From a virus: a stretch of 38,070 nt of DNA. Both the position numbers and the translations under genes were made by a program. Below the pieces are notes generated by a model. The model did no database searches. It worked only from the letters and a program-made list of their open reading frames with translations, and had not been told where the DNA came from. The DNA is taken from positions 1 through 38,070 of the IMG/VR virus record IMGVR_UViG_3300040801_001641; one strand, given 5' to 3'. Below, piece by piece: positions 3,770 through 36,858 of this stretch (position 1 is its first letter; each line of letters opens with the position of its first letter).

Positions 3770-6109
3770 ATGAGAGAAACCGCACGACACCACTCGTACG
3801 AACACTTGACCCAACAGCTAGGTACAAATGCCATGCCCAGTCTACTGCATGATTTGCTCGATGTCTGCCCCCAAGGTGCAAATGTTTTCGGCACCGGCTT
3901 CGCCTGTGACCCCAATGATGAGAGAGCCGACTGGTCAGCCAAACCGCTTACCGAGCGCTCGGCGATCTATTGGTCACCCAATGCCCACAGCAACCTGTTC
4001 CTCTGCGTCAGTGCCTTCACGGGGCTGAAGCGGCGCAAGGAGGCGTTCGTTGCCCAGCTCGCCATTATGATCGACGACATCCAGCAGGACATCGACGAGG
4101 CCATGCTGCCCGAGTCGCTGCCCCCGACCTGGACGGTGCAGACGTCACCCGGCAGCCAGCAGGGATGGTGGGTGCTGGAGGATCCGATCGTTGACATGGT
4201 CATCGCCGAGAACATCATCGCAAGCCTGCAGGCAGCCGGGTTCCGCAAGGCGAGCGGAGGGGACACGGGATTCAAAGGGGTCACGCGATATGGTCGACCG
4301 CCTGCTGGCAGGAACACAAAGGCGAAGTACCGGCAGGAGGATGGCACGTTCCCACGGGTCACGGGCGAGCGCACAGGTGAGCGTGTGACCGTCGACGAGT
4401 TCATCGAGGCGTTCGGGCTCGACCGGGACGCGATCTACTCGGGGAAGCGCCTGTCAGCCCCTGGGAAGGGCGAGCTGGGCGGGGAGCAGCCCCTGGAGGA
4501 CGTCAGCGCTGCAGCCGGCGTGGATCCGCTCCTGCCGTTCCTGGTGCAGCAGGGCATGGTCAAACAGATCAAGACCAACGGCTGGGTGGACGTCACCTGT
4601 CCCTGGGTCCATGAGCACACCGGCGGGGCGGACAACGGCACGGCTTACCTCCTAGCCGCTGCCAGCACCAAAGGGCATGGAGGTTTCGAGTGCCACCATG
4701 GTTCGCACGCTGACAAGACCATCGAAGACCTCAGGGCTTGGGCCGAGGAGCATGGCTGGGACAATCCATGGGTCCAGACTGAGGAGGAGGGCGCGGTGCT
4801 CACAGAGGGCAGCAAGGACGTCATCGACGAGATCAACGAGCGATTCACTTTCATCCAGAGTGAGAATGCCTGGCTCGACCACAAGACCATGGGCCTAGTG
4901 TCCGGGGAGGCCCTGACCCGCAACTACTCCGATCGGCTGGCGCAGAAGGTCAGCAAGGCGGGCACCCGGTTCTTCGGGGTTGAGGAGCGCACCATCGACA
5001 ACAATGGCAACCCAAAGAAGGCCTTCTATTCCCTCATCAACTGGCTCAATGGGGTCGGAGGCAAGCGGGCCGATGCACTGGGGTGGTATCCAGGGCGGGA
5101 CCGGATCTATGTCGAGGACAAGATCTCCTTCGCCAACACCTTCACCATGCCGGTGATCAGGCCCCATCGCTCAGATGGGCTCGCCAAGCCCTGGATCGAC
5201 CATGTCCACCGGCTCTATCCGGGTGAGGCCGCGCACATCCTGAACTTCTTGGCGTTCACGCTGCAGCACCCATCGGTCAAGATCAACCATGCGGTGGTGC
5301 TGGCCGGCGACCAGGGCATCGGCAAGAACCTCATGCTACAGCCCCTGGAGCAGCTCAGGGGGTTCACCCGGTCGACGACCATGGACATGGTGATGGCGGG
5401 GTTCAACGAGTGGCTGGAGGCCAAACTGGTCATCACCAACGAGGCCAGCCAGCTCAAGCAGCACACCCCGCGCGAGGTGCAGTCCAGACTCAAAAAATTC
5501 TGGGCTAGCCCTCCTGAGCACCTGGAGCTAAATCGCAAGTATCAGCGGGTCCGCCTGATCCCCAACCTGCAGTCGCACGTCCTGACGACCAACCACCTGG
5601 GCTCGCTGCATATCGACGAGCGCGAGCGGCATGTCATGGTGTGCCTCTCAGAGATCGAGGCACCGGACCCGGCATACTTCGCCACCCTGGGCGGCTGGCT
5701 GACCTCAGAGGGCTGGCGCGACGTCCTGGAGTACCTCATGGGCCGGGACGTGACCCGGTTCAATCCCAAGGCACCCCCGCCGCGCACAGCCGCCCTGGAG
5801 GCCATGCGCGAGCTGTCCATGGACACTGCCAGCCTGGAGCTGCGGGAGCACCTGGAGGGCCAGGAGGTGGTCTGCCTGACGCAATTGGTCAACACCCTCA
5901 AGATGGTCGACCCCAACCGCTGGAACCACCGCACGGTCACGGTGACCCTGCATGAGCTGGGCTGGGTCAAGGTCAACAACGACGGGGACGCGCGAGGTAA
6001 GTGGGCCTATGGCCGAGGTAAGGTGGTGATCTACGTGCCCAGGGGAGTACACAAAACAGAGGCAAAACGGCTTGTTCTAGCCTGGCTGAAGGCGAACAAG
6101 CCGGAGTAG
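3770..6109 (+). CDS. Primase with C-terminal SF3 helicase domain (DUF5906-like)
   Basis: Up to 779 aa. The N-terminal third looks like an archaeo-eukaryotic-type primase: IMIDDI (100-104), TSPGSQQGWWVL (125-136) and the RYGRPPAGRNTKAKY signature (173-187). A zinc-binding segment follows (C277, H281, H283, C308, H309/H310, H313). The C-terminal half is an SF3-type ATPase: Walker A GDQGIGKN (513-520), LVITNEAS (553-560) and HVLTTNH near 600. Phage P4 alpha protein has the same combination and also binds the origin. The putative iteron origin starts 65 nt downstream. The start is uncertain: ATG 3770 has GGAG directly abutting it, while ATG 3833 (22nd codon, MPSLLHDLLDV) has a weak AGG 10 nt upstream; codons before 3833 show little GC3 bias, so the protein may be 758 aa. 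Confidence 0.85.
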   Translation: MRETARHHSYEHLTQQLGTNAMPSLLHDLLDVCPQGANVFGTGFACDPNDERADWSAKPLTERSAIYWSPNAHSNLFLCVSAFTGLKRRKEAFVAQLAIMIDDIQQDIDEAMLPESLPPTWTVQTSPGSQQGWWVLEDPIVDMVIAENIIASLQAAGFRKASGGDTGFKGVTRYGRPPAGRNTKAKYRQEDGTFPRVTGERTGERVTVDEFIEAFGLDRDAIYSGKRLSAPGKGELGGEQPLEDVSAAAGVDPLLPFLVQQGMVKQIKTNGWVDVTCPWVHEHTGGADNGTAYLLAAASTKGHGGFECHHGSHADKTIEDLRAWAEEHGWDNPWVQTEEEGAVLTEGSKDVIDEINERFTFIQSENAWLDHKTMGLVSGEALTRNYSDRLAQKVSKAGTRFFGVEERTIDNNGNPKKAFYSLINWLNGVGGKRADALGWYPGRDRIYVEDKISFANTFTMPVIRPHRSDGLAKPWIDHVHRLYPGEAAHILNFLAFTLQHPSVKINHAVVLAGDQGIGKNLMLQPLEQLRGFTRSTTMDMVMAGFNEWLEAKLVITNEASQLKQHTPREVQSRLKKFWASPPEHLELNRKYQRVRLIPNLQSHVLTTNHLGSLHIDERERHVMVCLSEIEAPDPAYFATLGGWLTSEGWRDVLEYLMGRDVTRFNPKAPPPRTAALEAMRELSMDTASLELREHLEGQEVVCLTQLVNTLKMVDPNRWNHRTVTVTLHELGWVKVNNDGDARGKWAYGRGKVVIYVPRGVHKTEAKRLVLAWLKANKPE

Positions 6110-6111
6110 TG

Positions 6112-6140
6112 AGAAGGGGCCGAAAGGCCCCTTCTTATTT
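6112..6140 (+). terminator. Intrinsic terminator after the primase-helicase gene
   Basis: A perfect 10-bp stem AGAAGGGGCC / GGCCCCTTCT with GAAA tetraloop, followed by TATTT, begins 2 nt after the stop codon. It separates the replication operon from the AT-rich origin-like segment. Confidence 0.88.
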
Positions 6141-32557: not shown

Positions 32558-32741
32558 CGGTCTTCTCCTTCGCGGCGAGCCAGGCGGACTCAAGGCGCTT
32601 CGCGTATTCCTTGATATGCTCCACCTGGTTCAGTGGGACGATCACGGCGACCTTCTTTAGGCCGGCTTGCGCGAGGCGCTCTGTGCGGAGCAATTGTCGA
32701 TAAGCATCACGCTTTCGCCGTTGTTGCGTTGTCTGGTTCAT
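32550..32741 (-). CDS. 63-aa basic helical protein
   Basis: MNQTTQQRRKRDAYRQLLRTE followed by a short hydrophobic strand (KKVAVIVPLNQVEHI) and a helix (KEYAKRLESAWLAAKE). This 'KVaVIVP...v..IKeya..l' pattern, a basic helix then strand then helix, could be an RHH-like or small DNA-binding protein, but it is not a clear family match. Overlaps both neighbours (35 and 8 nt). Confidence 0.6.
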   Translation of the reverse strand: MNQTTQQRRKRDAYRQLLRTERLAQAGLKKVAVIVPLNQVEHIKEYAKRLESAWLAAKEKTDA

Positions 32742-32979
32742 GGATCTTCTCGATGATCTCTTGACTGATCGCGGCGAACTGCGGGGAGTACGCCGAGACT
32801 ACTCGATAGTAAGCCGACCGCTTACGGGTTGCCGCAACAAAGCGCTGCAATGAGATCACCTGGTACTGCTGCAGCGCGGTGTTCCAGCGGGTTACGAACC
32901 GGTAAATCACGCCAGAGGGGAGCACGTAGCGCCCGTTGCCATAGTCCGAGTCGATGTCGTTAGAGTTGAAACGAAACAT
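32707..32979 (-). CDS. Small protein downstream of the hairpin array
   Basis: A 90-aa protein (MFRFNSNDIDSDYGNGRYVLPSGVIYRFVTRWNT...), beta-rich at first then helical and basic (SLQRFVAATRKRSAYYRVVSAYS). GGAGATAGGC precedes the ATG. It is the first gene after the repeated hairpin array on the same strand; no promoter is seen between, so its mRNA should contain the array or a processed end from it. Function unknown. Confidence 0.68.
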   Translation of the reverse strand: MFRFNSNDIDSDYGNGRYVLPSGVIYRFVTRWNTALQQYQVISLQRFVAATRKRSAYYRVVSAYSPQFAAISQEIIEKIHEPDNATTAKA

Positions 32980-33002: not shown

Positions 33003-33640
33003 CCTTGCCGTGCCGGGCCCTGCCAAGCAGAGCCGTGCCTGGCCCAACCTAGCCAGACCTCTGGTGGAGAGATCCACCGGTCAACCGTTGCCGGCTGACC
33101 GCTAGAGACTCTAGCCCCTGCCTCACCAAGCCACGCCTAGCCGCTCCCCGCCCTGCCGGACCTGCCGAGCCTCTGGTGGTGATCCACCGGTCAACCGTTG
33201 CCGGCTGACCGCTGGAAACTCCAGCCCTCGCCTCTCCGCGCCGGGGCAGGCCTAGCCGGGGCGCGCCTCGCCACGCCACGCCTTCTGGTGGAAGAGATCC
33301 ACCGGTCAACCGTCGCCGGCTGACCGCTGGGGACTCCAGCCCTTGCCGCGCCGTGCCGAGCCCAGCCGGAGCGCGCCCCGCAGTGCCCTGCCGAGCCTCT
33401 GGTGGATGATCCACCGGTCAACCGTCGCCGGCTGACCGCTGGGGACTCCAGCCCTTGCCGTGCCCCGCCGCGCCCTTCCCCGCCGTGCCAGACCTGGTCC
33501 AGCCAGGGCTAGCCCCGCCGCGCCCTCTGGTGGAAGAGATCCACCGGTCAGGGCTTGCACCCTGACCGCTGGGGACTCCAGCCCTCGCCCTGACATGCCC
33601 CACCGGGACTTGCCAAGCCGAGCCCTACGGGGCCCTGCCT
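33003..33640 (-). repeat. GGCNN pentamer-repeat spacers flanking the hairpin units
   Basis: Read on the minus strand, the six stretches around and between the hairpin units (33583-33640, 33453-33528, 33341-33400, 33226-33286, 33116-33174, 33003-33062) are strings of 10-14 degenerate pentamers, mostly GGCNN, e.g. GGCAC GGCAA, with occasional GGNNN or single-base indels. The 5-nt period is incompatible with a conserved protein frame and no open frame spans the block. It may space the hairpins, bind a protein, or form weak two-tier G-quadruplexes (GGN3 repeats). Confidence 0.8.
33063..33582 (-). ncRNA. Five-copy array of a three-hairpin structured element
   Basis: Units (plus-strand coordinates): 33063-33115, 33175-33225, 33287-33340, 33401-33452, 33529-33582; periods 112, 112, 114 and 128 nt. 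On the minus strand each unit is three abutting hairpins: (a) GCUGG / CCAGC with a 5-nt loop AGUYN (a sixth pair in two copies); (b) a 9-bp stem GGUCAGCCG / CGGUUGACC with loop GCGA or GCAA; (c) GGUGGA / UCCACC with a 3-5-nt loop beginning UC (GGUGG / CCACC in unit 2). Unit 5 has GGUCAGGGU / GCCCUGACC in (b), with compensatory changes; unit 1 has GCUAGA / UCUAGC in (a). All five loops in (b) fit GNRA. The array lies between two leftward genes of one operon and probably is transcribed with them. Function unknown. Confidence 0.8.
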
Positions 33641-34093
33641 TTATTTGCCGCGCAGGGTTTTCCGACAGAACAGGCGGATGCTTCCCAGCTTGGCCTGCTC
33701 GTCTGTCCTGCGTTTCCGTTCGGCTTGCGACAGCTCGTCTACCCTGACGTGCGTGTAACTCTGCTTAGTGTCGCGGAAAAGCTTGCGGAGTCCTTTCGCC
33801 AGCCCATCGGATGCAGTCTCGATCTGCTCGGCTGCTCCCTGCACCCGGTATCCGATGCCCCGCACGTTAAGCAGCTCCCTGTCGTGCACCAGGAGCAGCT
33901 CATCCTTGAGCCGTTCAACGAAGGACATAAAGGCAAAATCAAACGAGTCGAACGCGGCACGGGGGGCCGGCTCAGCCGGCGGGATGATCCCACTGTGCCA
34001 CACAAGGTCCGCCTTGGTGATGGTGTACCCTGGCCCCTGCTTAGCCAGGAACGCGGCTAAGACGACCTCCGGAGTGAGCTGCTCCATGTCCAT
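33641..34093 (-). CDS. Small protein upstream of the hairpin array, winged-helix-like segment
   Basis: A 150-aa product from ATG 34093, coupled to the previous stop as TGATG and preceded by GAGG. The middle (FMSFVERLKDELLLVHDRELLNVRGIGYRVQ) looks like the recognition helix and wing of OmpR-type winged helices ('l.nVrGiGYr'); before it, LTPEVVLAAFLAKQGPGYTITKADLVWHSGII could supply the other helices. The C terminus is basic (DELSQAERKRRTDEQAKLGSIRLFCRKTLRGK). DNA or RNA binding is a fair inference. Its stop lies at the edge of the GGCNN block, so it is the immediate upstream neighbour of the array. Confidence 0.7.
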   Translation of the reverse strand: MDMEQLTPEVVLAAFLAKQGPGYTITKADLVWHSGIIPPAEPAPRAAFDSFDFAFMSFVERLKDELLLVHDRELLNVRGIGYRVQGAAEQIETASDGLAKGLRKLFRDTKQSYTHVRVDELSQAERKRRTDEQAKLGSIRLFCRKTLRGK

Positions 34094-34674
34094 CACCCCA
34101 CCTCTTCAACGCTGAACCGACCGAAGATGCCGCCGCGCTGGGGGCGGAAGTCTCCGAGCCCCACGTACTGCCCAGCGGCTGCTGCGCAACGAAGGACGTC
34201 TGTCTTGTCCATCATGTCGGTGTCGACGATCAGCTCGATTTCGGCCTTCCAGTTAGCAAACTTCGGGCGGTAGCGCATGACCCGCGCTCTGCCCACCACG
34301 ACCCCGCGCACGTCTTGAAACTCTTCGTTGTCGAACAGTTTGTCGGGATCCTGGGGGCCCTTGTAGAGCAAAGGGATCTCCTCCCCGTTCGCCATGATGC
34401 TGCGCTGCATCTGAGCGCCCAGCTTGCTCAGCTTCGCCCCTGCGACAAAGCAGCTCAGCAGGTTGATGGTCGGAATCACGACACGACCCTGCCGGGTGTA
34501 GAGCGACGCGTTGTACTCGCTTCTGGCGATCGCCAGGTGGATGTCATCGGTCTTCTTCGTGATCGCGGTCAGCACCTTGTGCGCCTTGGTCGCCTTGTCG
34601 AGAGGGTTAGCCAGTGTCGCCGCGTGCATCAACATCGGGCTGCTGCTGGTCAAACGAATTGCCATGGTTTCCAT
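34093..34674 (-). CDS. Phage protein of unknown function with GLGDFRP motif
   Basis: A 193-aa protein, first gene after the promoter at 34711-34740. Motifs: SSPMLMHAATLANPLDK, ITKKTDDIHLAIARSEYNASLYT, IPLLYKGPQDPDKLF, VMRYRPKFANWKAEIEL and a C-terminal glycine loop VGLGDFRPQRGGIFGRF. I recognise the overall pattern as recurrent in phage genomes, but no function is established to my knowledge; the Gly-rich loop and ferredoxin-like alternation are reminiscent of RAMP-type proteins, a weak resemblance. ATG 34674 has GGAG 9 nt upstream; ATG 34665 is possible. Confidence 0.72.
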   Translation of the reverse strand: METMAIRLTSSSPMLMHAATLANPLDKATKAHKVLTAITKKTDDIHLAIARSEYNASLYTRQGRVVIPTINLLSCFVAGAKLSKLGAQMQRSIMANGEEIPLLYKGPQDPDKLFDNEEFQDVRGVVVGRARVMRYRPKFANWKAEIELIVDTDMMDKTDVLRCAAAAGQYVGLGDFRPQRGGIFGRFSVEEVG

Positions 34675-35221: not shown

Positions 35222-35374
35222 TTAGCTTGACGTCAGAATGATCCAATATGTCCACCCACCCTGCCGGGTGCCCCGGCGGAAGCAGGCGGGGTTCTCCAGC
35301 CCCCCGAGCTGCTGCCAGTATTCCTTAGGAACCTTGGCATACAGCGGGCGGCGGCAGCGGGGCTTCTTGCTCAT
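35222..35374 (-). CDS. 50-aa basic protein, Cys-containing
   Basis: MSKKPRCRRPLYAKVPKEYWQQLGGLENPACFRRGTRQGGWTYWIILTSS (in two parts: basic N terminus to LENPACFRRG, then aromatic end). The ATG overlaps the previous stop (ATGA), so translation is coupled; there is no separate ribosome site. It is rich in Arg, Lys and Trp with two Cys. Function unknown. Confidence 0.6.
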   Translation of the reverse strand: MSKKPRCRRPLYAKVPKEYWQQLGGLENPACFRRGTRQGGWTYWIILTSS

Positions 35375-35790
35375 CGCGTGGCGCACACGGGGCCGATGCC
35401 GGCCTCGATGCTCTCCGGTGTCGTCAGGGCCCGTCCGCATGCGCAGCACACGCCCTCATGGTAGAAGGTCGCCTGCGCGGCCTTGTCCCACTTCTTCGCG
35501 ATGACCGCGTCCAGATACCACTGCAGGGCGCGCCCGGCTGGGCTCGGGTTCAGCTTGGCCCTGTGGCCGAAGACCGACGAGGGCGAGATGTAGCCGCAGT
35601 ATTTGTAGTCGCGGCTGTTGTCTGGTCCCACCAGGACGTCGATGAAACGCATCGGGGGCCGATTGTCGGCGCTGGCGTCGCCCATGCGGACGCGGTAGGT
35701 GTAGCGGTGCTCCTTCCCGACCAGGGTGAAGCGACCATGGCCCCCGAGGACATAGGCGAGGGCTTGCTGGGGCTGAAGGGCGTGGCTCAT
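35371..35790 (-). CDS. DUF6011-like zinc-finger protein
   Basis: A 139-aa product from ATG 35790 after the CCGGAGAACACC leader. The C terminus has the DUF6011-type finger: H111, C115/C116, C118 in HEGVCCACGRALTTPESI and C136 in GIGPVC. The N-terminal part (about 18-85) is beta-rich (GRFTLVGKEHRYTYRVRM, MRFIDVLVGPDNSRDYKYCGYI). This domain pair is common in phages and plasmids, with unknown function; nucleic-acid or protein binding through zinc is likely. Followed by a coupled small gene. Confidence 0.78.
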   Translation of the reverse strand: MSHALQPQQALAYVLGGHGRFTLVGKEHRYTYRVRMGDASADNRPPMRFIDVLVGPDNSRDYKYCGYISPSSVFGHRAKLNPSPAGRALQWYLDAVIAKKWDKAAQATFYHEGVCCACGRALTTPESIEAGIGPVCATR

Positions 35791-35809
35791 GGTGTTCTCC
35801 GGTGGTGCT

Positions 35810-35824
35810 GGCCCCCGAGGGGCC
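35810..35824 (-). promoter_or_regulatory. Intergenic GC hairpin plus CCGGAGAACACC leader (copy A)
   Basis: Minus strand GGCCCC-TCG-GGGGCC, then AGCACCACCGGAGAACACC and the ATG at 35790. Nearly the same cassette precedes genes at 36014 and 37329. No T run, so an RNA stability or processing hairpin is more likely than a terminator. Confidence 0.65.
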
Positions 35825-35834
35825 GGGTGGTGTC

Positions 35835-36014
35835 TCAAAATTCGATGTCTTCAAGCCAGTCACGGGGGTCTGCGAGTTCATCGTCGCTGAAGGCTGGACC
35901 GGGCTCATCCCAGCAGGGGTCGAAGTGCTCAGCGTTAAGCTCGGCTATGTAGTCCTCACGGGCATTGAACTCGTAGTCCCGATCCTCTTGGTCGACTGGA
36001 AACTGGCTGTACAT
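35835..36014 (-). CDS. Very acidic 59-aa protein (possible DNA mimic)
   Basis: Starts ATG 36014 after CCGGAGAACACCAC. The sequence MYSQFPVDQEDRDYEF... ends ...DPRDWLEDIEF and contains about 20 Asp/Glu against three Arg and no Lys (net about -17), with several Tyr, Phe and Trp. Composition of this kind is known from DNA-mimic inhibitors such as T7 Ocr and some anti-CRISPR or anti-restriction proteins, though those are longer. Position among early leftward genes fits a host-takeover role. Function is inference from composition only. Confidence 0.7.
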   Translation of the reverse strand: MYSQFPVDQEDRDYEFNAREDYIAELNAEHFDPCWDEPGPAFSDDELADPRDWLEDIEF

Positions 36015-36366: not shown

Positions 36367-36858
36367 TTACAGCAGTCCACGCTCAGCAAAACTGAGGCTG
36401 CCCTCGCTGCCCAGGATGATGTGGTCGAGCACCCGGACGTCGATCAGCACCAGGGCGTCCTTCAGCCGGGTGGTGATCCGGTGGTCCGCCGTGCTCGGCT
36501 CGGGATCCCCCGAGGGGTGGTTATGGGCGAAGATCACGGCAGCCGCATTGTGCGCGAGCACCTCCTTAACCACCTCCCGAGGGTAGACCGATGCACCGTC
36601 GATGGTGCCCCGGAAAAGCTCCCGGTAGGCGATGACCCGGTGCCGGTTGTCCAGCAGCAGGCACGCGAACACTTCATGCTCCAGCCCCGCGAGCTGCAGC
36701 CGCAGGTAGTCGCGGGTTGCCTCAGGCGAGGTCAGGACCGTGCCCACCTTCTTCAGCCGGCGGGCCAGGATGCGCAGGGCCTGCGCGATGATCTTGTCCT
36801 CGTCGACCGTGGCGGGGGCCGCGCAGTAGGCGGGCGCTTCTTCTGTTCTGATGGTCAT
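36367..36858 (-). CDS. radC: RadC-family JAMM protein
   Basis: A 163-aa protein with the RadC/JAB metalloprotease-like core: E62 in [11 protein letters not shown] and the metal motif H112-N-H114-x7-S122-x2-D125 ([14 protein letters not shown]). Length fits the catalytic domain without the N-terminal helix-hairpin-helix of full RadC, common in mobile elements and phages. RadC's biochemical role is still unclear; proposed are DNA-repair or anti-defence functions. GAGGGG precedes ATG 36858, which is close to the upstream stop. Confidence 0.9.

Follow-up and report, generated by a model that had tools for sequence, protein, structure and literature searches.

Viral Interference Programmable Repeat (VIPR) systems were reported in a 2026 preprint (PMC13142463). 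In these systems RNAs built of pentanucleotide repeats let a CRISPR-like protein recognise the DNA of rival genetic elements. The RNAs, termed vrRNAs, are encoded by the phage and are about 100 nt long. Each consists of a tract of 9–16 YNNGG repeats, hypervariable at NN, and ends in a structured 3′ tail that does not vary. The vrRNAs are arrayed in a minimal locus beside vap and vipr, the latter encoding a RAMP homologue with an RRM core and a G-rich loop. Double-stranded DNA is recognised through the NN dinucleotides, which base-pair with it while skipping one base from each dinucleotide to the next; the complex acts as a transcriptional repressor of competing phages. Experiments have been published on the SUSP1 and P. 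fulva systems, and type II VIPR comprises Escherichia phage SUSP1 and a Pseudomonas fulva prophage clade. A tail pseudoknot is given as a feature of the SUSP1 clade only and does not define the family (PMC13142463).

How does an environmental phage locus with tandem structured repeats compare with these systems? The DNA analysed here is a stretch of 38,070 nt from a virus (the window; IMG/VR record IMGVR_UViG_3300040801_001641). A GGCNN periodicity was noted in its sequence first, and searching the literature for phage pentanucleotide repeats then led to PMC13142463. Very probably, the region with these repeats belongs to a phage VIPR system, of which it forms the downstream vrRNA array. VIPR itself is already known, and what is new here is a well-preserved further example in this phage. 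The original prediction, which started from the repeats, knew of no phage element described with such a layout; that view has to be given up, as VIPR vrRNA arrays are described in the preprint (PMC13142463).

The structured part of the array consists of five units of 51–54 nt, each of which forms three hairpins joined without a single linker nucleotide. These tails lie on the minus strand at 33529–33582 (tail 1, whose middle stem differs by compensatory changes), 33401–33452 (tail 2), 33287–33340 (tail 3), 33175–33225 (tail 4) and 33063–33115 (tail 5), exactly where units of three abutting hairpins had been placed, with starts at 33063, 33175, 33287, 33401 and 33529. The hairpins had been read on the plus strand; the hairpins stand, and of the two strands the minus one is functional. 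In the plus-strand middle stem, A·C mismatches occur in four of the five units, and because these are G·U pairs on the minus strand, the minus-strand fold is the stabler one, by 6–8 kcal/mol in tails 2–5 (e.g. −33.8 vs −27.5) and by 3.5 kcal/mol in tail 1 (−36.6 vs −33.1). On the minus strand the middle loop is a GNRA tetraloop (GCAA or GCGA) closed by G·U pairs. These pairs and loops imply that the structured molecule is minus-strand RNA, and likely genes on both sides of the array are coded on that strand too. Across the five units and two relatives, 99.3% of the cells are paired, as against 16–52% when the partners are slid by 1–3 columns. All this bears out the earlier idea of a structured RNA array. 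Rfam gave no match to the units at E ≤ 1, and no DNA-level relatives were found in searches of phages and IMG/VR. A hammerhead ribozyme was considered and rejected, with no Rfam match at E ≤ 1 and no core motif seen in the units; here the window differs from VIPR arrays in which hammerheads are interspersed between the vrRNAs.

The sequence between the units had been described as far less conserved than the units themselves. The conserved units hold, but the spacers are not filler: on the minus strand they are in-phase runs of GGYNN pentamers, guide-carrying in the VIPR reading, that end directly before hairpin 1. A scan of the whole window (38,070 nt) found six such tracts, all on the minus strand, and none elsewhere. 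They lie at 33585–33639 (tract 1; 11 pentamers in an in-phase run, eight of them exact GGY), 33455–33524 (tract 2; 14, 11 exact), 33343–33397 (tract 3; 11, nine exact), 33228–33282 (tract 4; 11, eight exact), 33118–33162 (tract 5; nine in phase, eight exact, with a 1-nt phase slip just upstream) and 33005–33059 (tract 6; 11, ten exact). Over the six tracts, 54 of the 67 pentamers are exact GGY and 13 depart from it. The unit spacing of 112, 112, 114 and 128 nt follows from differing pentamer numbers (9–14), and the earlier argument that protein coding does not explain the spacing and conservation of the units is upheld.

The invariable structured 3′ tail follows five of the six tracts. Tract 6 has no tail and runs into the leader of the gene at 32707–32979; a guide that has decayed and a leader acting in cis are both possible readings of it. 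GGYNN tracts that are tail-less or carry a short hairpin and run into start-codon leaders were also seen in three related loci (L008:2652–2921, L013:2921–2965 and L068:2855–2939), where they stand around or before vipr, while tract 6 precedes gene 32707–32979.

Directly upstream of the array, on the same strand, lie homologues of the two genes expected in a VIPR locus. The vipr homologue (34093–34674, minus strand; 193 aa) is RAMP/Cas7-like and matches phrog_4652 with an E-value of 1e-54. It is 39% identical over its length to ALH47069.1, a protein encoded in the VIPR locus of phiSUSP1, the phage on which experiments were done, with conservation of GLGDxRP...FGRF; it is 46% identical to a protein of LESphi2 and also aligns with one of Medea1 (both Pseudomonas phages). 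A moderately confident AlphaFold2 model (pLDDT 72, built from four sequences) resembles Csm3/Cas7 chains, the RAMPs of CRISPR complexes: Foldseek returned eleven matches at E ≤ 1e-3, every one to a chain from a Csm or a type VII complex, with a best E-value of 1.4e-4 and TM-scores of about 0.5. The vap homologue (33641–34096, minus strand; 151 aa) overlaps the end of vipr, matches phrog_5926 with an E-value of 5e-17 and aligns weakly but collinearly, at 22–33% identity, with the genes that follow vipr in LESphi2, Medea1 and phiSUSP1. PHROGs and Pfam gave no toxin match among the neighbouring genes, and no cas operon was seen there. Elsewhere in the window, a 48-nt repeat occurs in five copies that are 60–94% alike (35786, 36016, 36278, 37329 and 37629) as minus-strand leaders; on that strand it reads CCACCACCGGAGAA(A/C)ACCAT(G), a Shine–Dalgarno-like leader ahead of several small genes. 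A RadC-like JAB domain protein is encoded at 36367–36858 (minus strand) among small early genes.

Single-sequence protein scans of IMG/VR gave no match, and an alignment was needed as the query. The alignment-based scan found 18 vipr loci in GTDB genomes and 245 in IMG/VR; the best 80 of these 245 were kept, and 101 related loci were examined in all. GGYNN tracts are present in 91 of the 101, with 186 tracts on the vipr strand, four on the other strand and none in shuffled copies. The tract scan used on the window likewise detects tailed GGYNN tracts in LESphi2, Medea1 and phiSUSP1. In the public records of LESphi2 and Medea1, vipr and vap are annotated merely as hypothetical proteins, and GGYNN tracts with structured tails stand there unannotated (positions 4584–4888 of the LESphi2 locus, L003, and 6074–6133 of the Medea1 locus, L004).

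The tails that follow the tracts in relatives repeat the plan of three abutting hairpins. A strict test, which demands perfect stems and no linkers, is passed by 39 of the 109 distinct tails, compared with 0.7 in shuffles, and many of those that fail have an interrupted middle stem. Homologues with conserved pairing, which the original prediction had proposed to look for, were thus found in number, and their covariation is strong. It was assessed in an alignment of 32 tails chosen for showing the three-hairpin plan. In hairpins 1 and 2 of these chosen tails, 92.6% of the cells are paired (68.6% shuffled, 29–54% slid), 102 cells are double-changed against 35 in shuffles, and the covariation score is 0.543 (0.155 shuffled, at most 0.118 slid). 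Hairpin 3, with at least 4 bp and 0–1 nt after hairpin 2, is found in all 32 chosen tails where 5.75 would be expected; because the tails were chosen, this count is not a family frequency, and the covariation is the stronger evidence. The covariance-model search that had been suggested was run with a model built from the window's five tails and two from Thiocystis violacea. It matched close tails (up to 60 bits) in another Thiocystis-family genome outside the model (L120, L123), Rfam itself being without a match; among loci totalling 214 kb that had been collected for other purposes, it gave nothing better than E = 0.15. There is also a capsid relative in a Thiohalocapsa phage. This relative and the nearest tails, which come from the Thiocystis family (Chromatiaceae), suggest a Chromatiaceae-like host.

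Do the tracts in this clade follow the published targeting code? We compared 127 distinct tracts of at least nine repeats with 729 kb of mostly vipr-flanking DNA. A best match covering at least 85% of the NN bases was found at a skip of one base for 13 tracts, and at skips of 0, 2, 4 and 5 bases for 1, 0, 2 and 0 tracts; near-identical loci account for a few of the 13, and the independent events are correspondingly fewer. Examples at the 1-nt skip are the tract at L038:4076, which matches 21 of 24 NN bases at L044:3082, inside the vipr gene of L044; that at L025:2871, with 20 of 22 at L035:3732; and that at L085:4073, with 19 of 20 at position 2215 of the Medea1 locus. The counts independently support the published 1-nt-skip rule in the clade with the three-hairpin tail, and one possible reading is that some relatives would target other VIPR loci.

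The window's own guides gave no convincing 1-nt-skip target, either in IMG/VR (cores of tracts 1–4) or in 194 Thiocystis-family genomes (tracts 1, 2, 3, 4 and 6). The 18-base cores of tracts 1, 2 and 4 had no match in IMG/VR, and the 16-base core of tract 3 had 15, about the chance expectation. The best of these, L106, matches tract 3 at 21 of 22 bases in a gene read as ParB-like; it is not taken as a target, the probability of such a match by chance being about 7% among 15 preselected matches and the skipped bases falling off the codon wobble positions. In the 194 Thiocystis-family genomes, matches with 2–3 mismatches occur at about the level of reversed-pattern controls, tract 1 excepted. 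This tract has six matches against none in the control, all with three mismatches; the five that were fetched lie in ordinary-looking cellular sequence, two of them in genes read as BamA-like. Within the window, tract 3 (antisense) has a contiguous 28/30 match to 35519–35547 in a DUF6011 gene (35371–35838); a higher score was reached in one of 60 shuffles and nearly reached in others, so that the match is not significant and is probably due to chance.

Structured RNA in tandem copies next to small phage genes also recalls type III toxin–antitoxin systems of the ToxIN type, in which the RNA repeats sequester an endoribonuclease toxin; tandem structured repeats in phage or plasmid DNA are indeed what the window and ToxI have in common. 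An antitoxin-like or decoy role had been among those originally offered. The partner does not support it: where ToxIN would have a ToxN-like endoribonuclease, the neighbouring gene here encodes a Vipr homologue, a Cas7-like RAMP, and no toxin is matched in Pfam or PHROGs. Nor, to our knowledge, are hypervariable GGYNN tracts between units — here variable guides, in the VIPR reading — a feature of ToxI, which counts further against an explanation to which we attach next to no probability. The tandem near-palindromes could likewise be expected of an element that acts as DNA in replication or packaging, of a transposon or of an artefact of assembly, but the G·U pairs, GNRA loops and covariation are specific to one strand, and many phages and prophages that are unrelated to each other have the same tail beside vipr and on its strand. 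Since the guide tracts differ, the array is not an assembly duplication. The replication or packaging role that had been suggested, and the transposon or artefact that had been allowed for, thus find little room here, and we regard this whole class of explanation as extremely improbable.

Cis-acting hairpins for mRNA processing, stability or attenuation within an operon, with the pentamer tracts as spacers, would agree with units that lie between genes on one strand and with a last tract that leads straight into a gene leader. They would leave unexplained that the tails recur both upstream and downstream of vipr, always after GGYNN tracts, that GGY is kept while the NN positions vary, and that the clade carries a 1-nt-skip signal; we therefore hold this to be very unlikely as the account of the array, while processing by the tail is possible as part of the VIPR reading.

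The architecture of tract and tail, the vipr and vap homologues, the predicted RAMP-like fold, the conservation of the tail structure and the 1-nt-skip signal of the clade together lead us to read the locus as a VIPR array. As in type II VIPR (SUSP1 and the P. fulva prophage clade), vipr and vap are encoded by the phage and accompany arrayed guide RNAs of about 100 nt, with GGY/NN pentamers and a fixed structured 3′ tail. The window differs from the type II systems of PMC13142463 in being from a GC-rich environmental phage and in having one tract without a tail, and from SUSP1 in the tail itself, which has three abutting hairpins and no pseudoknot that we could see, where SUSP1 has a pseudoknot and a hairpin. 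With class 1 CRISPR-Cas it appears to share the RAMP fold of effector subunits (Csm3/Cas7), as modelled, and a guide RNA with a constant handle; unlike those systems, the window has no CRISPR repeats and no cas operon among the neighbouring genes, and its guide is an interrupted GGY/NN code.

From PMC13142463 we infer, by analogy, the transcription and processing of the vrRNAs, their binding by Vipr, DNA targeting and a role in inter-phage conflict. The minus strand would be transcribed with or after vipr and vap and on through the array, and the transcript would be processed into about five vrRNAs of roughly 100–125 nt, each with a GGYNN tract as guide and a three-hairpin 3′ tail as fixed handle. 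Vipr, a small Cas7/Csm3-like RAMP, would coat the tract; the NN dinucleotides would pair with double-stranded DNA, skipping one base between them, and the bound complex would repress transcription of competing phages, prophages or satellites. Among the roles originally offered, a protein-binding RNA array is the one that fits such a presumed interaction with the RAMP homologue. The three-hairpin tail, in its difference from the SUSP1 pseudoknot, may be a clade-specific variant, or it may be the form shown for the P. fulva clade in the supplement of PMC13142463. A more speculative and rather doubtful proposal is that this tail forms a distinct class of VIPR handle, a coaxial stack in place of a pseudoknot, which would also set the cutting of a polycistronic vrRNA precursor, and that the tail-less or short-tailed tracts (tract 6, and those before vipr in L008, L013 and L068) would be cis-acting leaders bound by Vipr for autoregulation.

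VIPR has been proposed as an ancestor of the CRISPR effector machinery and as a programmable DNA-binding system. To this family the locus adds a GC-rich environmental phage with an array of five to six guides, and sequence by itself identifies the three-hairpin tail as a strongly covarying RNA in many relatives. Unannotated guide arrays adjoin pairs of 'hypothetical proteins' in public phage records, for example those of LESphi2 and Medea1.
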